Assembly (NCBI GenBank): GCA_004153385.1
Contig: SDAL01000001.1
Span: 1 to 64,000, forward strand
Reading direction: 5' to 3'
DNA: 64,000 nucleotides
From: Paracoccaceae bacterium
Lineage (GTDB): Bacteria; Pseudomonadota; Alphaproteobacteria; Rhodobacterales; Rhodobacteraceae
Notes under the pieces: model-generated
Told to the model about the DNA's origin: nothing
What the model saw: only the letters and a program-made list of their open reading frames with translations
The model's database searches: none
Part shown: piece after piece, positions 3,455 through 44,358 of the stretch
Position numbering within the stretch: position 1 is the first letter of the stretch
Layout: each line of letters starts with the position of its first letter
Program-made: the position numbers and the translations under genes

Positions 3455-5173
3455 ATGACCGTACAGCCCCAGTTTACCCAAGCCCAGCCTGTCAATCTGA
3501 AAAAGCCACCGATCGTTCTGCGGTTCTCTGGGCTTTGGCCTCATACGCTGCGCCGGTTTAGGTTCCACGATGAACGCCGCGGTGGGGATCTGGGGCATGT
3601 TGATTTGCGCCGCACAAAGGCCAACGAGATTCTTGTTGGTGGTGAGAAATGGCATCAGGTCATCCGTGATGAAATTGTACAGATGAAGCAGCATAACTTT
3701 GAGCAGCATCTTGCAGCTCTCCATAAAAAATCACGCAAATCGGAGGTGCGCAGGGTTGAGGAGGCGGGACCAGCAGACCCGTGGCGCGTCAGCAAGGAGG
3801 GGCCGCTCAGGGAAGGGATCTTGACCGTCAACAAGGATTGGTTTGGCGGAAGTGGGCAGGCGCAGTGGGACCCCGAACGCGTGAAGGAGTTCAGGCGAAC
3901 CGCGATGAAGTTCCTGCGCAGGAGCTTCCCGGGTGATCAGCTGCGATTCGCGTCGATGCATATGGATGAAGAAGCCCTGCACATCCACTTTGTGGTGGTC
4001 GTGTGGGCTGAAAAACCTTCCATCAACCGTGGTCATCAGGTCCTGCTGCAACCATCTGAAAATCCGCTGCTCCGGAATTATGAGTTGGCTCAGGATATGG
4101 CGGGTGCCGCTTTTGCGAAGATTGGGATCACTCGTGGGCAGCGCCGTGCCGAGGCCCGACGCCGGGCGCGGGCCGAGGACAAACCTCTTCCGGACAGGCG
4201 GCGGCACGTGCCGCCGTCTGAGTGGCGCGCCGAAGAGCGCCGCAAGGCGCAGGAAGAGAAGAAGCGCCTCCTCGGCGCGGCCGAGGAGGCGGCGAAGGCG
4301 ACCCTCGAGGACGGTCGGGACCTTGCCAAGGCTGCGGTGAAGAAATCGCGCAAGCGCGCCATAAAAGAGGCGCAGGCCCGCAAAAAGCGGGCTGCGCAAG
4401 AAATTGCAGAAGCGATCCGGCTCCGCGATGCGGCCGGGAAGGAAGCGCTGCAGTTTGAAAAAGCGGCTGCCGCCGCATCTTCTCGGAAAATGGGGATTGA
4501 GGCCGAGGTCGGGGCGTTGGAGCCGTTGGTAAAGGGGTATGAGGAGAGGGCAGAAAAAGCTCTTGAAAAGTTCCAGGCGAAGGTTGCGGAGCGAAAGGTA
4601 GAAGAAGAAAAGTTGGCGCGGATCAATCGCGAAGCGGAGGAGGGAAAGCAAGGGTTGGCCGACCTGCGAAGGCGCGAATGCGGCCTTGTCGCAGAGGTCC
4701 AGTCGCTGGAACAACATCGCGCCCAAGAGGCAGCGGCATGTATTACCGCCCAATCTGCGCGCCAAGTGGAAGAGCAGAAACTGGAAGACGGGGTAACGCA
4801 GGTGCAGCTGAAAGTCGCGGAAGCGGAGATTATCTCAGAGGCCGTTGAAGCTGGTTTGGAGCTGGTTGCTGAGGGCGCGCTGCTTTGGCAGGAAGAAGCG
4901 ACGGATCGGAAAGCGGGCTTGGTTTGGGGCGCGGCGGCACCGAAAACGGGTGACCTGCGGGCGGAAAAGCGGAAGCAAATCCATCCTGCGATGGGAATGG
5001 TCACGCGAATTGCGCAACTGGTCGCACGTACCGTCAAACGAGCTTTGGCCAAAGAACGCCAAAAGTTGCAGGACGATGCGGAATATGTCCGTGGCCTGCG
5101 AGAGCAGTGGGAGCCAGAGGCTCAGGCTCGTCTTGCGCAGATCTCGCAGGGGACAGATGCGGGGCCTTCGTGA
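3455..5173 (+). CDS. MobV/Pre-family relaxase (plasmid mobilization/recombination)
   Basis: 572 residues. Motif I-like HDERRGG...LRRTKANEIL lies near 38-60. The metal-binding relaxase motif HMDEEALHIHF lies at 169-179 (H169, D171, E172, H176, H178) and matches the HxDE..PHxHF signature of MobV/Pre proteins. From about 210 to 540 the protein is an Arg/Lys/Glu/Ala-rich helix, probably a long coiled coil, as usual in this family. Such enzymes nick oriT and attach to the 5' end to start conjugal mobilization. No type IV secretion genes are visible, so transfer would need a helper. The ATG at 3455 has only a weak ribosome site but keeps motif I. Confidence 0.82.
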   Translation: MTVQPQFTQAQPVNLKKPPIVLRFSGLWPHTLRRFRFHDERRGGDLGHVDLRRTKANEILVGGEKWHQVIRDEIVQMKQHNFEQHLAALHKKSRKSEVRRVEEAGPADPWRVSKEGPLREGILTVNKDWFGGSGQAQWDPERVKEFRRTAMKFLRRSFPGDQLRFASMHMDEEALHIHFVVVVWAEKPSINRGHQVLLQPSENPLLRNYELAQDMAGAAFAKIGITRGQRRAEARRRARAEDKPLPDRRRHVPPSEWRAEERRKAQEEKKRLLGAAEEAAKATLEDGRDLAKAAVKKSRKRAIKEAQARKKRAAQEIAEAIRLRDAAGKEALQFEKAAAAASSRKMGIEAEVGALEPLVKGYEERAEKALEKFQAKVAERKVEEEKLARINREAEEGKQGLADLRRRECGLVAEVQSLEQHRAQEAAACITAQSARQVEEQKLEDGVTQVQLKVAEAEIISEAVEAGLELVAEGALLWQEEATDRKAGLVWGAAAPKTGDLRAEKRKQIHPAMGMVTRIAQLVARTVKRALAKERQKLQDDAEYVRGLREQWEPEAQARLAQISQGTDAGPS

Positions 5174-5313
5174 AGATGGGCGGTGAGCCGACCTTCGCTG
5201 TGTCGTGGACCAACGTCTGCTTAGCGGAGGCGCTGCAGCATTCTGATCCAAGGCTGAAGGTCGGATCTGGGCCGGATGCGCAGTTGGGTGCCGGACCCCG
5301 ACGAGCGGTGCGA

Positions 5314-6016
5314 TCATATGCCCTGTGCGCCCCTCGCCTTCCGAGTCGTACTGAGCTTCATGCCGAGAGAGTCTAGCCTCTCCTCGGGGCCGATCCAGGC
5401 GTAGGCCAGAAGGCAGGGGTCCAGTTCGCCCTTGGTGATCCGGTGCTCAAGCCCCGGCCGGTTCATAATGAGCGACCCGGATGCATGGACGGCGGCGTCA
5501 TTCTCAGATCAGGACCCAGCGACCGAGATGTAGCTTTTCTCAATCTCATGGTGGCTATGCTGAGGATAGGTTGTGTTTGGCGCAAAAAGCACGAACTACA
5601 GCACCAGCTTCTCGGTCCGAACAGGGCCGCGCGGTTCTAGGATTTCGCAATAGGCATATTTCCGCGCCAGCGCCTTGGGCACCTCCTCGTATCCGTACTC
5701 CCGGGTGAGCTGGTCCTTCACCCGCGAAAGCGCCCGGGTCCCCCCTGCACCGCGCCACGCTCACCGAGATCGAGCGCCCGGAAGAGATGGGCCGTGACTG
5801 GCTTGGCTTCCACAGGGCGCAGGCTGAGCTCGGGATTTGCGTCGATGATCGAGGGCAGGGCGTCCCGCACGCGCTTGCGGTGTGCGCGGATCAGCCGGCT
5901 CCCTCCTGCAGACCCGTGTCGGTAGAGGGTATCGAATTCACGCAGCAGGAAATACCAGCCGGGGCATTCGTGCAGGCGCAACGTCGCTGCGCCCGCGCTG
6001 TGGAGAGTTGGTCCAT
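5314..6016 (-). pseudogene. dddL: DMSP lyase DddL, decayed (2 deletions, 2 stop codons)
   Basis: Conceptual translation recovers a DddL-like cupin DMSP lyase of about 230 residues: MDQLSTARAQ, then ATLRLHECPGWYFLLREFDT, then ALSRVKDQLTREYGYEEVPK, then the metal-binding core TTYPQHSHHEIEKSYISVAG, then MNRPGLEHRIT and LAYAWIGPEERLD. Lesions seen: a 1-nt deletion near 5985-5987, a 1-nt deletion in the C-run near 5740-5745, TAG at 5596-5598 and TGA at 5509-5511. The start has a good site (GAGGTGA) 19 nt after acuI, the known acuR-acuI-dddL order of Rhodobacter. The enzyme would cleave DMSP to acrylate and dimethyl sulfide; here it cannot be made intact. Confidence 0.85.
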
Positions 6017-6035
6017 TTCGCTCACCTCGGGGCCC

Positions 6036-7016
6036 TCACGCGGCAATCGGAACGACAATACGGCCGCGCACGACGCCGTCGAGGAATTGCGGCGCGGTGT
6101 CGATCACCTCGGCAAAGGGCACCTCGGTGATCATCTCCTCAAGCTTACCAAGGTCGAGATCGCGCGCCAGCCGCGACCATGCCTCGAGCCGATCGGGCTT
6201 GGGGCACATCACGCTGTCAACCCCGGCAAGCGTCACGCCGCGCAGGATGAAGGGCGCGACAGAAGCGGGCAGATCCATGCCTGCCGCCAGGCCGCAGGTC
6301 GCGACGACACCGCGATATTTCATCATCGACAGCATATTCGCCAACACAGTGCTGCCCGCGACATCAATGCCCCCGGCCCAGCGTTCCTTGGCAAGCGGGC
6401 GGGTCTTTCCGGTCAGCTCGGCGCGGTCGATCACCGAGGCCGCCCCAAGCCCGCGCAGATACTCAGCCTCCGCAGGCCGACCGGTCACGGCCACAACCTC
6501 GTAGCCTCCGGCCGCAAGCAAGGCCGTGGCAACACTGCCGACGCCCCCCGCCGCACCGCTGACGACGATCTCGCCCTTGTCGGGCGTTGCCCCCTGCCGT
6601 TCCAGCGCCAACACACAGAGCATCGCCGTGTAGCCCGCCGTGCCGATTGCAGCTGCCTGCCGCGGAGCAATTGCCGCGGGCAGCGGGACGAGCCAGTCGC
6701 CCTTGACCCGGGCTCGTTCGGTCAGCCCGCCCCAATGGGTCTCGCCCACGCCCCAACCGTTCAGCACGACCCGGTCACCGGGCTTGAAGTCAGGGTGACT
6801 GCTTTCGGCGACGGTGCCGGAGAAGTCGATGCCGGGCACCATCGGAAACCGGCGCACGACAGGGGAGGCCCCGGTGATCGCCAGGGCATCCTTGTAGTTC
6901 ATGGTCGAGTAGGCGACATCAACAAGAACGTCGCCTTCGGGCAGCTGCGTATCCGGGACGTCTTGCACCGAAACGATCTGCGTATCGTCGGGCTTTTCGA
7001 TCAGGATTGCCTTCAT
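6036..7016 (-). CDS. acuI: NADPH-dependent acryloyl-CoA reductase AcuI
   Basis: 326 residues, full length for the YhdH/AcuI branch of medium-chain dehydrogenases. NYKD (40-43), PGIDFSGTV (61-69) and the nucleotide loop [10 protein letters not shown] (152-161) are all present, and zinc ligands are absent as expected. AcuI reduces toxic acryloyl-CoA to propionyl-CoA. It sits between acuR and the dead dddL on one strand, 12 nt after acuR. The frame is intact and in good codon use, so the detoxifying step seems kept although the DMSP-cleaving gene has decayed. Acrylate may come from another source or another lyase. Confidence 0.9.
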
Positions 7017-7028
7017 CTTCGTATCCTT

Positions 7029-7691
7029 TCAGGTGTTTGTGGCCTCAATTTCGATCAGGCGGAGGAACGTGTCCGCAAAGCGGCGCAGGGGATCGGGGCG
7101 CAACTCAAGCTTGGCGCGCAGCACGGCGCCCTCCCAGCCGATCCAGAAGGTCTCCGCCAAGTCCGCGGGGGCGTGATGCGGCACGATCGTGCCCTGCGCC
7201 AGGGCCAGGCTGAGCAGTCGCGCCGTGCGGGCCTGCCAGTCTTCCAGCACGGCCGTGAGCGCGGCGCGGAATTCGTCAGGGAGCGCGCCCATTTCCTGCC
7301 CGAGATTGCCTACAAGGCACCCCCGCCGGAAACCGTGCCGCGCCATTCTCTCCTCGGCCCGTGCAGTGAAGATGCGGAGCCGGTCGAGCGGCGCGTGCTC
7401 TTCGTCCAGGAACGCCCGCTCGATCTGCGTGGTGAAATAGGCGTTGTAGGCTGCGACAAGCGCGAGACCGAAATCGGCCTTGCCATGGAAGTAATGGTAG
7501 AAGCTGCCCTTGGGCACACCAGCCGCCTTGAGGATCTCGTCGATCCCGACCGAGAAATACCCCTTTTCCGTGAGGTGCTCGAGCCCGGCGCGGATCAGCT
7601 TCTGGCGCGCCTCGGACGCATCCGGCGCGCCGCGTGGCCGGCCACGGCGGGGCTTCTGGCTGGCGGACTGAAGGGGGACAGTTTCGGTCAT
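7029..7691 (-). CDS. acuR: TetR-family acrylate-responsive repressor AcuR
   Basis: 220 residues. The N-terminal TetR helix-turn-helix spans about 25-72 (ARQKLIRAGLEHLTEKGYFS, then KAAGVPKGSFYHYFHGKADF). The C-terminal half fits the AcuR-like ligand domain (RRGCLVGNLGQEMG). AcuR of Rhodobacter sphaeroides represses acuR-acuI-dddL and is released by acrylate. The gene starts the same operon here, and a perfect TAGAC/GTCTA inverted repeat lies 13 nt upstream of its start, in its presumed promoter. The order and identity of its partners make the AcuR call firm. Confidence 0.87.
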   Translation of the reverse strand: MTETVPLQSASQKPRRGRPRGAPDASEARQKLIRAGLEHLTEKGYFSVGIDEILKAAGVPKGSFYHYFHGKADFGLALVAAYNAYFTTQIERAFLDEEHAPLDRLRIFTARAEERMARHGFRRGCLVGNLGQEMGALPDEFRAALTAVLEDWQARTARLLSLALAQGTIVPHHAPADLAETFWIGWEGAVLRAKLELRPDPLRRFADTFLRLIEIEATNT

Positions 7692-7703
7692 AGTTTGAGT
7701 TTC

Positions 7704-7719
7704 TAGACCACTCAGTCTA
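7704..7719 (-). promoter_or_regulatory. Candidate AcuR operator (TAGAC-N6-GTCTA)
   Basis: TAGAC at 7704-7708 and GTCTA at 7715-7719 form a perfect inverted repeat with a 6-nt spacer, just upstream of acuR on the minus strand. TetR-family repressors usually bind such a site over their own promoter. Binding by AcuR is inferred from position. Confidence 0.6.
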
Positions 7720-8293
7720 ATAATTCAATGTCTACTTGATCAGGGTGTTCAAGCTGACCGGCCAGGCTCTGCCGGTCATAGTGACCCCGCAGCAAACCCG
7801 AGCCTCCGCAGGTGTGGTCGTTGGCTCTAGGTCGATCACCGCATTGATCCTAGCTGAGCGACAGCGTTCGGGGTGAAGGCGGAGTAGAGAAGTGAACGCT
7901 TCCTGCGTTTCGTGGCCGACCACTGCGCCATTGCAGCTTGTGCAGCGAATGTTCGAAAGGTCCGTCTCTGCTGTCATTCGAGGGACAGAGATGCCGCGTG
8001 ATGCACGAATGGCCGCCATGGTGAAACCGTAGGGCAACGCTTGACCCTTGGACGAAGGTCCGCAATGGGCCGGGAGCGACGGAAAGCTTAGTCGCGGATG
8101 CACCTGCCGCCGGTGACATTGCTACGTCAGGTGTCGTTCAGGCGGGGGCCAAGCTGAACGCGCTTGTTAAGGCGTGTCGCGCAGGTCTGCGGACGCTCCC
8201 GGCCCAACGCAATGGTCAGGATCCTTCTCGGCGCTGAATGCGCAAAGATGTTTCATACGGCGCAGATAAGCTCAGGTAGGAAGCGGCGGTTGT

Positions 8294-8365: not shown

Positions 8366-8487
8366 GCGTTCGGGACCGCCTTCCGCGTCAACCGTCGCAA
8401 ACCGCAAAAGCCCGTGAGCGTTGCATCTGACCCCCCTGACGACCCCGTCGCAAGGCGAAGCAAGCCGCAAGATCTTAGGGTCTGGAC

Positions 8488-8975
8488 TCATAACCAATAG
8501 ATGATGGTTGCAGCGAGAGCGATTGCGGACAAGAAGACCTTTGGGCACCTGTCGTACCGGGTCGCGACCCTTCTCCAATCCTTCAATCTACCGAACATGA
8601 TCTCGGTTCTATTTCGGCGTTTGTAGCGGCGCTTGTCGTATTTCACTGTGGTCTTGCGCTGCTTACGACCCGGGATGCAGGCGCGTATCCCTTTGTCTCG
8701 CAACGCTTCTCTGAACCAATCAGCGTCATAGCCGCGGTCACCGAGCAACCAGTCGACATTTGGCACGCTGCTCAGCAAGGCCCGGGCACCGATGTAGTCG
8801 CTGACCTGCCCGGCGGTCACGAACAAGCTGATCGGCCGCCCCTGGCTATCGCAGACCTCGTGCAGCTTGGTATTCATACCGCCCTTGGTGCGCCCGATCA
8901 GGCGTCCACGGCCCCCTTTTTCACGCCCATGCTGGTCGCGGTGCGGTGTGCCTTGAGGTAAGTCGCGTCAATCAT
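8488..8975 (-). pseudogene. IS5-type transposase ORFB (DDE domain), frame broken at A5G5
   Basis: ATG at 8975 overlaps the ORFA stop (TGATG). MIDATYLKAHRTATSMGVKK runs into a run of five A and five G at 8912-8921. One more G would give the expected KKGGRGRLIGRTKGG, but the frame as written stops soon after. The downstream frame carries LLGDRGYDADWFREAL and NRTEIMFGRLKDWRR, the second Asp and the Glu of the DDE triad. Either a 1-nt deletion has inactivated it, or -1 slippage on the homopolymers makes a functional product. Confidence 0.72.
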
Positions 8976-9244
8976 CACGGTCTCCTTTCTTGATGCTCGG
9001 TAGCCAAGCCAGCCATGATCCGATCAAAGACGCCCTTGTCGCTCCACCGCTTCCATCGGTTATAGAGGGTCTTGTGAGGGCCGTATTCTTTGGGCGCATC
9101 GCGCCAGCGTAACCCATTGCGGTTGATGAAAATAATCCCGCTCAGCACCTTGCGGTCATCAACCCTTGGCTTGCCGTGGGACTTCGGAAAATAGGGCTTC
9201 AAGCGCGTCATCTGCGCGTCGCTCAACCACAAAAGATCAGACAT
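8975..9244 (-). CDS. IS5-type transposase ORFA
   Basis: 89 residues: LLWLSDAQMTRLKPYFPKSH...GKPRVDDRKVLSGIIFINRN...WRDAPKEYGPHKTLYNRWKRW, the standard N-terminal domain (DUF4096-like) of IS427-group transposases, including the LRWRDAP and YGPHKTLYNRW motifs. It ends with a TGA overlapping the ORFB start. This half is intact. It binds the terminal repeats in this family, while ORFB supplies the catalytic residues. Confidence 0.8.
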   Translation of the reverse strand: MSDLLWLSDAQMTRLKPYFPKSHGKPRVDDRKVLSGIIFINRNGLRWRDAPKEYGPHKTLYNRWKRWSDKGVFDRIMAGLATEHQERRP

Positions 9245-9309
9245 GTCACCGCTCAGTTTTTCGGCGGTGAATCACGACGCTCGGCTGAGATCAATGGGTC
9301 CTGACCCTA

Positions 9310-9796
9310 GGTGCCTTCGGGAAGATGGCATGTCACTTGGAGATGTCGCCGCCGAGTTGGATGCCCATGAATGCCTGTTGAGAAAGTGGTGGATCGCTGA
9401 TCGGCGAGAGCGTGTTGAAAAAAACTGCGTCGATGGGCAGGCCTTCGAGCAGGTTTTAGTCGAACCGACTGTCGCTCCGGCGGCGCATCAAACTACCGCT
9501 GCAGCTAATAGCTCAGCAGGCTCAGCTCACCTGTACGTGGGCGGGATTTGCCTCAAGTTTCCCTTTGTCCATCGACGAAGCAGACCTTCTGAAGCTGATC
9601 CGTGTTGCTGGACAGTGCCAGTGATTGCACTGTCCAGCAGCGATCGTATCTATCTGACCACTCGCCCTGTCGATTTCCGGAAGGGAAGGGATGGCTTGGC
9701 CAATTACGTCATGACCAATTTGAAACTCGCCCCCTTCTCCGGTGCGTTCTTCGTCTTCCGCTCGAAGGGCGCGACAAGATCAAGGTTTTGATGTAG
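9310..9796 (+). pseudogene. IS66-family tnpA/tnpB remnant
   Basis: The first part reads LGDVAAELDAHECLLRKWW, as in IS66 TnpA. A frameshift near 9570 moves to SIDEADLLKLIRVAGQCQ, TnpA's usual C-terminal end, with TGA at 9622-9624. From GTG 9621 (4-nt overlap) comes the start of TnpB, SSDRIYLTTRPVDFRKGRDG...SGAFFVFRSK. This stops at 9791, where the IS3 remnant begins. tnpC is absent. The element was truncated on both sides, by the IS5-type copy on the left and the IS3 copy on the right. Confidence 0.75.
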
Positions 9797-10613
9797 AACA
9801 TAACCTGAGCCCCAAGTTTCTTCCAGCTCTGGGCGGAGTCCTTGGGGTTAAATTTTTGGCGCCAAGCCGCCATCTTGTCCATTGTCTTTCTCTGCAAAAT
9901 TCCATCGGTGTCAGGTTGCCCAATTCTGAGTGCGGCCTGCGCCAGCTGTAATCCTCCTGCCAGTCTTTAAGCGTGTTGCGGGCATCGCGCATTGTTCCAA
10001 ACAGCGTTTCGTTGAGACGCTCGTCTCGCAGTTTGCTGTTGAAGCTTTCAATGAAGCCGTTCTGCTGGGGCTTTCTAGGCGCGATGTGAAGCCAATCGAC
10101 GCCGATTTCCTGAACTCATTTAAGGATCGCGGTGCTGGTAAACTCAGGGTCGTTGGCCGATACAATCGTCTCTGGCACCCCTTTGGCCCGGCAATGATGT
10201 GTCCGCGACCAGCACCAAGTTCTCGCGATTGAGGTTATCGTCGACGGCCAGAATGCGAAAACGGGGATCGTCTGTCAGCGCATCAGACACGACATCCAAG
10301 CTCCAACGTCGGTTTGGACCATCGGCATTCTCTTGCCCAACGCACGCTTCCTGCCACCTCTGCGCCGCACCTTTTTGTGGTTCGCCGCACAACCTTCCCG
10401 CGCAATTATCCCATGGACGCAACTACAACCAAACCGTCGCTGTTTTCTGGATCGCCGTTTGATCGCATCGCGTCGCTCAGCGTCATCGCCACGGCGCGTC
10501 AGGTATCGCACCGTGGCCCGATCCACTTGCAGAGCATCGCACGCCTGTCGCTGGCTGACCTGATGGACCTCCATCAAATGCGCCATCGCCTCCCGCTTCG
10601 CAACGGGTGTCAT
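9797..10613 (-). pseudogene. IS3-family transposase OrfB remnant with several frameshifts
   Basis: Read on the minus strand, pieces in different frames follow the IS3 OrfB order. First MTPVAKREAMAHLMEVHQ and RQACDALQVDRATVRY (helix-turn-helix), then PNRRWSLDVVSDALTDDPRF and NRENLVLVADTSLPG (integrase core), then [20 protein letters not shown] and [11 protein letters not shown] (end with the final catalytic region). At least three frameshifts separate them. The AAAAAAAG just before the ATG at 10613 is the usual OrfA-OrfB slippage site, but OrfA itself is gone. Non-functional. Confidence 0.75.
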
Positions 10614-10628
10614 CTTTTTTTAGATTGA

Positions 10629-11420
10629 TGTCTCGGAACATGCATCCGACCCATATGATCTGTTAGCTTTGCCGTCTTTCTGGCCGGTAAAGCTGTAGGT
10701 CAGCTGCTCGCCTGCCGGGCAGACACAGGCATGTGTGCCGCTATCATATGCGACCTTAGCCTTGTCGAACTGACTGGGTGCAGCGGCGCTTGATATTATA
10801 GGGTTGGGAACCACACCTGAGATGCCGGCCTCTTCGCTGGCGACGATTTACTGCTCTTGTCGTCCACTTGATCCGTGATCTCTGTGGGCTGATCTGCCGC
10901 TAAGAGATCATTGGCCGCCGCGACCATCATCGACAAGGCATGCCGCTCAGCCCCGCGCATTGCTATTTCATGGGCAACGATCAGGTTGCGATTGGCGTCG
11001 ACGGCCGTTTGAATATTACAGTCGATACTGCGCAGCATCGGGGCCGTTGTTGCTGTGGATCGTGCATCAGGACCACCAAGCGAAACTTGGGGCGCGCGGC
11101 GGTCCCATCCATGCTCTGCTCGATTGTTCTGTAGCACAGGGCTTCTTTTGACAGATGCGCCAGCTTTCTCAAGACACGTTCCAGATTGCCATCACGTTCG
11201 CGCCCCAAACGCCGCGATGAAGGGAGCTGGTTTAAATACCCGTAGACCTGAATTCGAAGCAACAAGACAGGGTGACAGCCGGGCCGAGCAATTGCCGCTG
11301 GCGGTGCATTGAAGCCCGGCACCGTAAGATCGACAAGGGCTGCGAAAGGTGTCACTCAGACGAACGAGACGGCGCATACCATCGATCATGTCGAAATGGG
11401 CAGGGGTCCACACGGCCTGT
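10629..11420 (-). pseudogene. IS1182-family transposase remnant
   Basis: Fragments in order on the minus strand match IS1182 transposases: GCHPVLLLRIQVYGYLNQLP then SSRRLGRERDGNLE (N-terminal), CNIQTAVDANRNLIVAHEIA (central Asp region) and FDKAKVAYDSGTHACVCPAG then EQLTYSFTGQKDGKA (insertion domain). Several frameshifts and missing segments (including the C-terminal Glu region) show it is dead. It abuts the IS3 remnant at about 10.62 kb. Confidence 0.7.
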
Positions 11421-12676: not shown

Positions 12677-13900
12677 ATGAAAATCAACCGTCGCCAGACG
12701 TTGGGCCTGCTTGGCTCGACAGCCGTTCTTGCTTGTCCGAATATTCTATCCGCTCAGGAGGGGCCGATCAACGTGTCGGCGCTTTATGATCTTTCCGGCG
12801 GCCTTGATGTTTACGGGGCACCAATTGTCGACACGCTGAAATTCGCTGTCGCAGAGCAAAACCGTAACGGGGGCCTTTTGGGTCGCGAGATAGAGCTGAA
12901 GGTGTTCGATCCGCAATCCAACATGCAGCTTTATGCCCAATTCGGTCGCCAGACCGTTTTGGCCGACAAGCCTGCTGTGGTGTTTGGCGGCATCACCTCC
13001 TCCTCGCGCGAGGTGTTGCGCCCGATCATGCGCCAGTTCAACACGCTGTATTTCTATGCCAATCAATACGAAGGTGGTGTTTGCGATCGAAACATGTTCG
13101 CAACCGGCGTGACACCGGGGCAGACGGTCGAAAAACTGGTGGATTATTCCACCAAGACGTTTGGCAAGAAGGTTTATATCGTCGCGGCCGATTATAACTA
13201 TGGTCAGATCACCGCAAATTGGGTGCGTAAATTCACAGCCGATCAGGGCGGTGAGGTGCTGGCGGTCGAATTCTTCCCGCTGGATGTGACAGATTTCAAA
13301 ACGGCCATCTCGAAGATACAGCAGGCAAAACCGGACTATGTCTGGTCGGCGCTTGTTGGCGGGGCGCATATCTCCTTCTACCGCCAGTGGCAGGCGGCGG
13401 GGATGCACCGGCAAATTCCGCTTTCGTCTACCACATTCGCAGGCGGCAACGAGCATGTCATCCTTACGCCCGAGGAATGCAACGGCTTTATGGTCTGCCA
13501 GAATTATCTTCAGGAGATCGATACCCCCCAGAACGCGGCCTTCGTATCAGCGTTTCACAAGATGTATGGTGCCGATTATCCCTATATCACCGAACTTGGC
13601 GTTGGCGCCTATCAGGGGTTCAAGCTGTGGGCCAAGGGCGTCGAGCAGGCAGGGACCACAGACCGGATGCCGGTTATCGAGGCGTTGGAAACCGGCGTGT
13701 CGGTCGACGGGCCGAGCGGCCGTGTGCAAATCGATCCGCAGACGCATCACACGATCATGGATGTGCATATCGCGCGGGTACAGGACGGTGGGCTGGTGCC
13801 CGTCGAGACCTTCTCGCAAGCGCGACCTGTCGACACCGCAATGTCGTGTGATCTGATCGCAAACCCAGCCGATACCACGCAATACGTGATCGAGCTGTAA
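12677..13900 (+). CDS. Amide/urea-type ABC transporter periplasmic binding protein
   Basis: 407 residues with an N-terminal export signal. NRRQTLGLLG suggests the Tat route, and cleavage is likely after about residue 26. The mature part is a type I periplasmic binding fold of the AmiC/UrtA/FmdD class (LYDLSGGLDVYGAPIVDTLK near 37-56; FGGITSSSREVLRPIM). It would deliver short amides, urea or a related solute to the two permeases that follow. It is the first gene of an operon that also codes for an amidase and an AmiC/AmiR pair, which argues for an amide ligand. GAGG precedes the ATG. Confidence 0.85.
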   Translation: MKINRRQTLGLLGSTAVLACPNILSAQEGPINVSALYDLSGGLDVYGAPIVDTLKFAVAEQNRNGGLLGREIELKVFDPQSNMQLYAQFGRQTVLADKPAVVFGGITSSSREVLRPIMRQFNTLYFYANQYEGGVCDRNMFATGVTPGQTVEKLVDYSTKTFGKKVYIVAADYNYGQITANWVRKFTADQGGEVLAVEFFPLDVTDFKTAISKIQQAKPDYVWSALVGGAHISFYRQWQAAGMHRQIPLSSTTFAGGNEHVILTPEECNGFMVCQNYLQEIDTPQNAAFVSAFHKMYGADYPYITELGVGAYQGFKLWAKGVEQAGTTDRMPVIEALETGVSVDGPSGRVQIDPQTHHTIMDVHIARVQDGGLVPVETFSQARPVDTAMSCDLIANPADTTQYVIEL

Positions 13901-13909
13901 GGAGCGGAC

Positions 13910-14779
13910 ATGGATCTGGCATCTATCCTGACAATCGAGATTCTGGGCTCTGTGGCCGTTTTGGTGCTGATCAGCATCGGGCTGGCCGTGGTGTTCGGGA
14001 TGATGAAGGTGATCAATATGGCGCATGGCGAATTTCTCATGATAGGGGGATATGTTGCCATCTATGCAAAAAACTGGGCTGGCCTGAATTTCTGGGTCAG
14101 CTCGCTTGTGGTGGCGCCGCTTTGCGTGGGGCTACTGGGGCTGGCCTTGGAATGGCTTGTTGTACGCCATTTATATGGCCGGATGATTGATACCATGCTG
14201 GCGACATGGGGGATCAGTCTTGCCCTGATCGGTGCGATGACCATGCTGGTTGGCAATACCACGACGGGGATTTCCACGCCGCTCTCAAGCGTGACAATCG
14301 GGGCATATTCGGTCAGCGGCTACGGGATCTATCTGATCTGTCTGGCGCTTGCGATTTTTGTGCTGCTGTACGGGCTGTTTCGCTTTACCGCCTTCGGGTT
14401 GCAGGCGCGCGCCACAACCCAAAACGCCGATATGGTGGCCGCACTCGGGGGCAACCCGCGCAGGATTTATTCGATGACCTTCGCTCTGGGGGCCGCTTTG
14501 GGGGGCTTGGGCGGGGCCGCACTCGCCCCGATTACGGGTGTCATTCCTACCATTGGTGCCACCTATATCGCCAAAGCCTTCATCACTGTGATCAGCGGCG
14601 GCGGGGCTGTGATTGCGGGGAACCTGTCGGCGTCTTTGTTGTTTGGCACCGTTGGTCAGGTTTTCACCTATCTTTATACGCCGGTCATAGGCGAGGTGGC
14701 GCTGCTGGTGGCAGCCGTGGTTCTGATCCGGATTTTGCCGAAAGGCATCACCGGTCGTTTCTTCCGGAGGTCCATCTGA
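13910..14779 (+). CDS. ABC transporter permease, LivH/UrtB type
   Basis: 289 residues, highly hydrophobic with about eight membrane segments. The conserved LivH-type region VFGMMKVINMAHGEFLMIGG is near residues 28-47, and a GGLGGAALAPITG segment lies near 200. It forms one half of the membrane channel with the next gene. It starts 9 nt after the binding-protein gene and overlaps the next permease by one base (TGATG), so the two are likely co-translated. The substrate follows from the binding protein and is probably an amide or urea-like compound. Confidence 0.87.
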   Translation: MDLASILTIEILGSVAVLVLISIGLAVVFGMMKVINMAHGEFLMIGGYVAIYAKNWAGLNFWVSSLVVAPLCVGLLGLALEWLVVRHLYGRMIDTMLATWGISLALIGAMTMLVGNTTTGISTPLSSVTIGAYSVSGYGIYLICLALAIFVLLYGLFRFTAFGLQARATTQNADMVAALGGNPRRIYSMTFALGAALGGLGGAALAPITGVIPTIGATYIAKAFITVISGGGAVIAGNLSASLLFGTVGQVFTYLYTPVIGEVALLVAAVVLIRILPKGITGRFFRRSI

Positions 14780-43195: not shown

Positions 43196-43269
43196 CGAAA
43201 AGCCTGCAGGCATAGGCTCTGCGGCGGTATTTGATGCCGGAGTATCCGGCGCTGCAAAGAGGTGCCATC

Positions 43270-44358
43270 ATGGCGAAACTTCTGCGGACGGATCTATATG
43301 ATCTGCATCTGGACCTTGGCGCTAAAATGGTTTCTTTCGCCGGATGGGAGATGCCGGTCCAGTATCCTATGGGCGTTCTCAAGGAACATCTGCACTGCCG
43401 CGCTCAGGCGGGGCTTTTCGACGTGTCCCACATGGGGCAACTGCGCGTGCCGCTTGCGGCAGCCACCGCTCTGGAAGGGCTGATGCCGGTCTGTGTCACA
43501 GGGCTGGCCGAGGGGCGCCAGCGCTATGGTATGCTGACCACGCCGGGCGGCGGGATATTGGATGATCTGATGGTGGCCCGCAAATCCGACCATCTGTTTT
43601 TGGTTGTGAACGCGGCCTGTGCGGACGCCGATATCGCACATATCCGTGCCGTTGTTCCCGAACTCGAGGTGATAACCGATCGCGCGCTGTTGGCATTGCA
43701 GGGACCTAAGGCCGAGGCAGCCTTGGCGCATCTGATCCCGCAGGTGGCCGCGATGCGATTTATGGATGTGGCGGACGTCGACTGGCAGGGCCGGCGGCTG
43801 TGGATCTCGCGCTCTGGCTATACCGGCGAGGACGGGTTCGAGATTTCATTGCCGCGCGAGGCGGCCCCCTCCTTTGCACGTGCCATGCTTGCAAATGATG
43901 CGGTGGCCCCCATCGGGCTGGGCGCGCGCGACAGTCTGCGGCTTGAGGCAGGCTTGTGTTTGTATGGCCATGACATCACGCCCCAGACAACGCCGGTCGA
44001 GGCGGGGTTGGCATGGGCGATCCAGAAAAACCGGCGAAATTCGGGCGGTTTTTACGGCGAGGAGACAATTCTTGCACAGTTGCAAAACGGCGCCCCACGC
44101 CAGCGTGTGGGCCTGCGCCCGGACGGGCGCGCGCCGATGCGTGAGGGCACCCCGATCTATGCCGAGGCCGAGGGTGGCACGCCGGTTGGGGTCGTGACAT
44201 CAGGCGGTTTCGGTCCGTCGGTCGGGGCGCCGGTGGCGATGGCCTATCTACCAACGGCGCTGTCACAAGGCGGAACGGTTTTTGGCGAGGTCCGTGGCAA
44301 AAGATTGCCCGCACAGATCACCCCATTGCCATTTCACCCGCATCATTTCAAACGCTGA
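43270..44358 (+). CDS. gcvT: Glycine cleavage system T protein (aminomethyltransferase)
   Basis: 362 residues from MAKLLRTDLYDLHLDLGAKM. VSFAGWEMPVQYPMG lies near 21-35, FDVSHMGQLRV near 50-60, SRSGYTGEDGFEISLP near 180-195 with the conserved folate-site Asp/Glu, and ARDSLRLEAGLCLYGHDI follows. It transfers the one-carbon unit from the H-protein lipoyl arm to tetrahydrofolate. ATG 43270 follows AGAGG; an earlier ATG at 43231 in the same frame is unlikely. Confidence 0.93.
   Translation: MAKLLRTDLYDLHLDLGAKMVSFAGWEMPVQYPMGVLKEHLHCRAQAGLFDVSHMGQLRVPLAAATALEGLMPVCVTGLAEGRQRYGMLTTPGGGILDDLMVARKSDHLFLVVNAACADADIAHIRAVVPELEVITDRALLALQGPKAEAALAHLIPQVAAMRFMDVADVDWQGRRLWISRSGYTGEDGFEISLPREAAPSFARAMLANDAVAPIGLGARDSLRLEAGLCLYGHDITPQTTPVEAGLAWAIQKNRRNSGGFYGEETILAQLQNGAPRQRVGLRPDGRAPMREGTPIYAEAEGGTPVGVVTSGGFGPSVGAPVAMAYLPTALSQGGTVFGEVRGKRLPAQITPLPFHPHHFKR

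Follow-up and report, generated by a model that had tools for sequence, protein, structure and literature searches.

A recently broken dddL in a probably transferred acuR-acuI-dddL cassette of a Paracoccaceae genome that also carries a DddD-type gene cluster

In Rhodobacter sphaeroides 2.4.1, the available part of the operon's description (PMC3017554) gives an operator of the form TAATAGAC-N6-GTCTATTA and presents the regulator AcuR as a repressor. In contrast, the AcuR of Halomonas D47 is described as an activator in the portion of that study drawn on here (PMC13104084), where it binds DMSP and acrylate, needs Lys86 for both effectors and acts as the regulator of acuI, with a DddD pathway alongside under the control of a LysR regulator. 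The sections used of PMC3338564 note a linkage of acuI to dddD, as of 2012, in Halomonas HTNK1 only, and DddD clusters with acuR or acuI homologues appear in further bacteria in the D47 excerpt (PMC13104084). The same sections of PMC3338564 name R. leguminosarum WSM2304 as dddD-bearing and report that E. coli strains mutated in YhdH, a homologue of AcuI, show sensitivity to acrylate and, to a lesser degree, to 3-hydroxypropionate. Cleavage by DddD gives dimethyl sulfide and 3-hydroxypropionate (-CoA) (PMC3338564, PMC4437653, each in part). The excerpt of PMC4437653 adds that DddD requires a catalytic aspartate, and that Glu129 of DddQ is among the active-site residues essential for catalysis.

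The window analysed here, the first 64,000 nucleotides of contig SDAL01000001.1 of a Paracoccaceae bacterium (GCA_004153385.1), carries a locus of the R. sphaeroides type on its reverse strand. As far as the operon of strain 2.4.1 is covered by the text available (PMC3017554), the two share their gene order, acuR-acuI-dddL with the TetR-type AcuR first, as well as an operator-like inverted repeat over the promoter, immediately ahead of the acuR ATG; they differ in that dddL is broken in the window and that the right arm of the repeat reads GTCTAGAA instead of GTCTATTA. The preliminary description had held acuR and acuI to be intact, which stands: the frames of the TetR-family regulator acuR (7029..7691, minus strand) and of the acryloyl-CoA reductase acuI (6036..7016, minus strand) are open, and both products exceed the cut-offs of the NCBIfam equivalog models NF051457 (AcuR, 268.9 bits, cut-off 247) and NF051456 (AcuI, 541.4 bits, cut-off 440). 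This copy of AcuI is the only one above cut-off in the genome. A probable AcuR operator, TATTAGAC-N6-GTCTAGAA, was located by eye at 7701..7722 (minus strand), 8 nt before the acuR ATG, where it overlaps a promoter-like pair TTGAAT-17 bp-TAGAAA; the R. sphaeroides core is present in it. Comparison with the published pocket residues of D47 AcuR, a residue list and not a sequence in the part of the study available, located 12 of the 13 through their motifs, each shifted by the same 3 positions, and the position of Lys86 is Gln in AcuR of both the window and its nearest relative (PMC13104084).

The dddL pseudogene (DMSP lyase, PF16867) occupies 5314..6016 on the minus strand and lacks the single ORF of about 230 codons expected of DddL, its frame being interrupted by two stops as well as two frameshifts. 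Against PF16867 (DMSP_lyase), the C-terminal piece scores 107 bits (cut-off 27, 1e-30), while the 87-aa N-terminal piece alone matched no Pfam or NCBIfam family; each piece is 90% identical to the intact DddL of the nearest relative of the cassette, the MAG Paracoccaceae bacterium isolate STC_3 (L012, JAQTYE010000040.1), and the tree places the window gene among the DddL rows. Together with an alignment to six relatives, these matches bear out the earlier assignment to DddL and its reading as a pseudogene. The same alignment defines the lesions. Of the two 1-nt deletions first described, the one near 5742 stands, as a deletion in a G run (5736..5745, minus strand), whereas the one near 5986 is a frameshift directly 3' of the start codon (5993..6010, minus strand, following the ATG at 6016) that amounts to a net gain of 2 nt relative to STC_3, equivalent in frame to a loss of one. 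Both stops are where they had been placed, a TAG at 5596..5598 and a TGA at 5509..5511 (both in frame, minus strand). The former falls on a codon that encodes Gly in 49/49 relatives and in 6/6 of those aligned, and is three base changes away from the STC_3 codon; the latter falls on a Trp codon (49/49 relatives, 6/6 aligned). Across the 3.77-Mb, 9-contig genome there is one PF16867 place (3.4e-30), which contains one TGA and one TAG, and hence no intact backup dddL. The same pseudogene is absent from the other 15 genomes of the genus, and the literature on dddL pseudogenes and on Roseobacter DMSP lyase loss, to the extent that its text was available, yielded no report of a dddL pseudogene.

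The preliminary description had further taken the cupin metal box to translate well, which does not hold. At 5533..5541 (minus strand) the metal motif HSHHEIEESY has become HSHHEIEKSY, replacing a Glu found in 49/49 relatives by a Lys at the metal-ligand position, which aligns with DddQ Glu129. Of the expected cupin residues (two His and the Glu in motif 1, the Tyr, and the His in motif 2), the Glu is thus replaced, whereas HSH, the Tyr and the EHRI stretch are retained. Also altered are Trp105, Gly127 and Pro217 (STC_3 numbering), each invariant in 49/49 relatives, and Tyr22, now Phe, which is Tyr in 47/47 rows reaching the position. The 48 in-frame rows have 60 invariant ungapped columns; 58 of these can be compared with the window, which alters four, and its stops fall on the other two. 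When each of the 48 rows was left out in turn, 42 broke no invariant column, five broke one and the most distant (L050) broke three. The frameshifted dddL of another genome of the genus (L011) is within the 49-row residue set and was excluded from the DddL tree and the invariant-column count; L051 is not part of the 49-row set.

Constraint on the three genes was compared using a codon model (custom script) over nine taxa with lesion codons masked, a step that biases the dddL omega downwards. The eight relatives were drawn from at least 11 with the whole cassette; L016, whose acuI is frameshifted, and the more distant genus copies in G001 and G005 were left out, and cassette copies from a search of 394 genomes are not in the models. 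On the window branch, omega for dddL is 0.222, compared with a background of 0.095 (p=0.011), yet full neutrality is rejected at p=0.0002 with nine taxa and at p=0.001 with 19. The 19-taxon model, which adds 10 further dddL rows including L016, gave 0.229 against 0.097 (p=0.010), with two of its three fits ending at the iteration limit. For acuI, omega equals the background (0.090 against 0.093, p=0.92) and is below 1 at p=7e-8, and for acuR it is 0.167 against 0.130 (p=0.55) and below 1 at p=0.002 (both nine taxa). The comparison of acuI with dddL that had been proposed therefore came out as relaxed dddL beside acuI under purifying selection. Relaxation short of full neutrality points to a late loss; treating the branch as a mixture of constrained and neutral evolution places it, as a rough inference, within about the final 14% of the branch (profile range about 3-35%), a figure biased low by the masking. 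The pseudogene is thus "fresh", as had been claimed, in the sense of being young relative to the split from STC_3, in which dddL is intact. Counts by codon position are weak evidence for relaxation of dddL. Parsimony assigns to third positions 15/31 polarised changes of dddL, 15/24 of acuI and 11/21 of acuR on the window branch, and 7/9, 9/9 and 5/10, respectively, on the STC_3 branch, so that acuR looks nearly as unselective as dddL by this measure, for which L016 served as outgroup despite its frameshift. Moreover, parsimony puts nine dddL changes on the STC_3 branch, to which the codon model gives almost no length; this conflict makes the polarisation coarse and a control with STC_3 as foreground uninformative.

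The cassette shared by the window and STC_3 extends over 5268..7964 (minus strand) at 92.0% over 2699 columns, and similarity ends at both edges. Upstream of it lies an IS5-type transposase copy in two ORFs (8476..9310, minus strand), and downstream a MobV/Mob_Pre-like relaxase ORF (3455..5173, plus strand) that reaches 35.9 bits with Mob_Pre (cut-off 25.5) and, with MobV, 39.3 bits, under the cut-off of 100. The DddL tree joins the window and STC_3 (100/99) within a nine-row set (95/94) that also includes Alloyangia, Salipiger, Chachezhania, a Rhodovulum MAG and another MAG, apart from both the seven-genome dddL clade of the window's own genus (90/93) and the G001/G005 pair; the starred branches of this tree force three label changes. 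In the genus, acuR-acuI adjoin dddL only in G001 and G005 among the 10 other copies examined with 12-20 kb of surroundings. When the cassette was compared with 394 genomes of the family, none exceeded 75% identity except the genome itself, among the matches listed. The simplest reading is that the acuR-acuI-dddL cassette was probably acquired by horizontal transfer and that dddL decayed afterwards.

The first 276 bases of the window are 99% identical to those of contig C3, such that one repeat opens both C1 and C3. Further repeats lie around the cassette: the Mob-like ORF has a 3' end (5032-5188) that recurs on C1 (2070848-2070991) and C3 (25991-26144), and positions 9805-10654 recur on C5 at 92%. 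After the IS-rich stretch, an ABC-type substrate-binding protein (Peripla_BP_5) and a branched-chain-type permease are encoded at 12677-14779. Among the relatives, Alloyangia mangrovi SAOS 153D (L016) has an acuI frameshifted by a 1-nt gain in a G run (9250-9420) beside a dddL in frame, which may be a sequencing error.

Other genes of DMSP metabolism were sought across the genome. Of dddP, dddQ, dddW and dmdA, the genes suggested for checking with the preliminary description, none was found within the reach of the searches, but an intact DddD-type gene, which that list did not include, is present. DddQ is covered by the PF16867 search, since the model scores the aligned DddQ stretch at 66.2 bits. 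No protein of the genome exceeds the DmdA cut-off of 410 bits, nor does any in the 16 genomes of the genus. Of four GCV_T proteins considered as DmdA, three pass the models for GcvT, sarcosine oxidase alpha and YgfZ, and the fourth is an 861-aa oxidoreductase-GcvT fusion under every NCBIfam cut-off shown. At 43231-44358 the window itself encodes a glycine cleavage system GcvT, intact, which matches the DmdA model weakly (72.4 bits) and could be mistaken for DmdA. The one protein of the genus that comes close to the DmdA cut-off of 410 bits, at 373.9 (G009:C1:1041783-1042862, L099), is a possible divergent DMSP demethylase. Likewise, none of four M24 proteins reads as DddP: one, of 274 residues, was taken as far as its family match, one is aminopeptidase-like and under cut-off, one is ectoine hydrolase-like (529 bits, cut-off 613; DoeA structure at 1.5e-140), and one is creatinase-like, matching 1chm at 3e-149 and 4b28 and 4rzy/4s00/4s01, presumably the DddP structures, only at 4e-6 to 4e-5.

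The DddD-type protein is 842 aa long from the ORF-finder start, in an intact open frame of 848 residues, and has two CoA_transf_3 domains (PF02515, two stretches, 372 bits). Its C-terminal domain has a GYDD from residue 572 that aligns with the GYD of CoA-transferases, and the N-terminal domain has AFES at this place; the Asp of GYDD is the candidate catalytic Asp of DddD. The gene is flanked by one for a GMC oxidoreductase and one for a BCCT transporter, a LysR gene being divergent from them (LysR-GMC-dddD-BCCT), and its product shares 66.6% identity over the full length with the R. leguminosarum WSM2304 homologue. NCBIfam offered no DddD model for the protein, the models over it all being below cut-off, and no solved DddD structure was found. 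Architecture, gene order and identity together assign it as a predicted DddD. Of 39 dddL-bearing genomes from the DddL scan, one has a match to it (at 43% over residues 84-841), and the STC_3 genome, a MAG of unstated completeness, has no DddD match at E 1e-100.

Within the genus, dddL is in frame in 9/16 genomes, broken in two (the window genome and G002) and unmatched in five. DddD occurs in five of the 16 (G000, G003, G013, G014 and G015, split in the last over two contigs), two of which, G003 and G015, have it with no dddL. A tie between DddD presence and dddL loss was rejected as evidence: dddL is intact in 2/5 genomes with DddD and in 7/11 lacking it (Fisher p=0.60), which leaves the redundancy argument statistically unsupported, and the second broken dddL, that of G002, is in a genome with no DddD. 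This copy (L011/L125; G002:C1, about 277501-278164) is frameshifted by a net five extra bases in the TTTTCTTTC stretch with its cupin motif otherwise kept, and would be either a pseudogene or an assembly error. AcuI is above cut-off in 14/16 genomes, with one place each at E 1e-60. These include G006, which has neither dddL nor DddD, and retention of acuI is therefore not special to the window locus; AcuI may serve something else, as its retention in G006 beside neither lyase shows. Two observations concern the dddD loci of the genus. In G015 (L121, G015:C108:1-5263), acuR-acuI directly adjoin the dddD-GMC-LysR genes, and in G003 (L122, G003:C56, 8331-9147) only the two ends of the BCCT transporter that follows dddD find a match, marking a transporter remnant beside an intact DddD.

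Taken together, these results make it probable that the locus holds a young dddL pseudogene in a transferred cassette in which acuR-acuI were kept, and that the DddD route probably still yields dimethyl sulfide. On this reading, horizontal transfer would have brought in the cassette, and dddL would have broken down late along the lineage, with purifying selection maintained on acuR and acuI. The BCCT transporter would still import DMSP, and DddD would cleave it to dimethyl sulfide and 3-hydroxypropionyl-CoA, which would render DddL dispensable. AcuR-AcuI would remove acryloyl-CoA arising from 3-hydroxypropionyl-CoA or from environmental acrylate and could have been kept because acryloyl-CoA can still arise. 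Judged from sequence, AcuR-AcuI most likely still handles acryloyl-CoA, and the acrylate-forming cleavage step was lost, with dimethyl sulfide production probably kept through the 3-hydroxypropionate route. The preliminary description had gone further and suggested that dimethyl sulfide production was lost altogether, with acryloyl-CoA detoxification alone being kept. The second half of this suggestion is supported at sequence level by the purifying selection on acuI. The first draws on a dddL that is both broken and the sole PF16867 match, and on the lack of any protein above the DmdA cut-off or reading as DddP, but the conclusion fails on the intact DddD-type cluster, with its transporter and GMC oxidoreductase, elsewhere in the genome. 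Total loss is accordingly improbable, and the ecological shift that had been read from the one locus fails on genome content.

Two further explanations concern the cassette itself. An intact dddL misrepresented by sequencing or assembly error might be suspected from the indel in a G run, from the 9-contig assembly and from the nearly identical 276 bases at the start of C1 and C3. However, indel errors do not account for the two nonsense substitutions, one of three base changes, or for the four further changes at invariant columns; the adjoining acuI and acuR frames are intact, and constraint on dddL is relaxed even with the broken codons masked. The lesion pattern makes error a poor explanation, with next to no probability left to it. 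Decay of the whole cassette, with acuI and acuR next in line, would fit the mobile-element genes around it, the share of third-position changes in acuR on the window branch, and the promoter-like pair and right operator arm, which differ between the window and STC_3. Against it stand an acuI omega at background level, an acuR omega that is not significantly raised, and the standing of AcuI as a gene with no second copy above cut-off here and kept once in most of the genus. The operator moreover keeps its core TAGAC-N6-GTCTA, and each of the -10 and -35 hexamers, scored by eye, agrees with the sigma-70 consensus at 4/6 positions, as in STC_3. Promoter decay, considered from the comparison with STC_3, was set aside, and decay of the entire cassette is unlikely.

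The young pseudogene with acuR-acuI kept and a probable DddD route may be part of something broader. It is conceivable, though tentative, that a switch of DMSP route is in progress, in which the lyase alone is shed and AcuR-AcuI acts as an acrylate- and DMSP-sensing guard of the DddD route against acryloyl-CoA. The same switch may have been repeated in the genus, where G002 has the frameshifted dddL, G003 and G015 have DddD and no dddL, and G015 has acuR-acuI beside dddD. If this is true, the genus provides a natural setting in which to compare DMSP cleavage that forms acrylate with cleavage that forms 3-hydroxypropionate, and to test for protection of the DddD route by AcuI. Gene-content surveys of dimethyl sulfide production could be misled in both directions: the broken dddL would be scored as present, as its C-terminal piece passes the PF16867 cut-off, whereas from the window locus alone the genome would be scored as a non-producer despite its intact DddD-type gene.

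Set against known systems, decay of dddL is a known kind of gene decay, with redundancy or route switching as a modest twist. The closest cassette, that of STC_3, resembles the window at 92% DNA identity and differs in its intact dddL and its flanks. The DddD-type cluster has the same layout as that of the Phaeobacter piscinae plasmid pP13_b (81% identity), where another LysR gene and a methylmalonate-semialdehyde dehydrogenase gene follow; in the window genome, no gene identified as an aldehyde dehydrogenase directly follows that of the BCCT transporter. LysR, GMC oxidoreductase, DddD and BCCT also occur together in the dddD clusters of Halomonas HTNK1 and D47, as far as the available parts of their descriptions extend (PMC3338564, PMC13104084). 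The window genome departs from these and from the P. piscinae cluster in that its acuR-acuI is not linked to dddD. Co-occurrence of DddL and DddD in one genome is already known from Dinoroseobacter shibae, for which the available text lists DmdA, DddL and DddD (PMC3789786); here, by comparison, dddL is a pseudogene and DmdA was not found in the genome. The window locus thus represents a known type of operon in decayed form, and its ecological reading is corrected by the genome around it.
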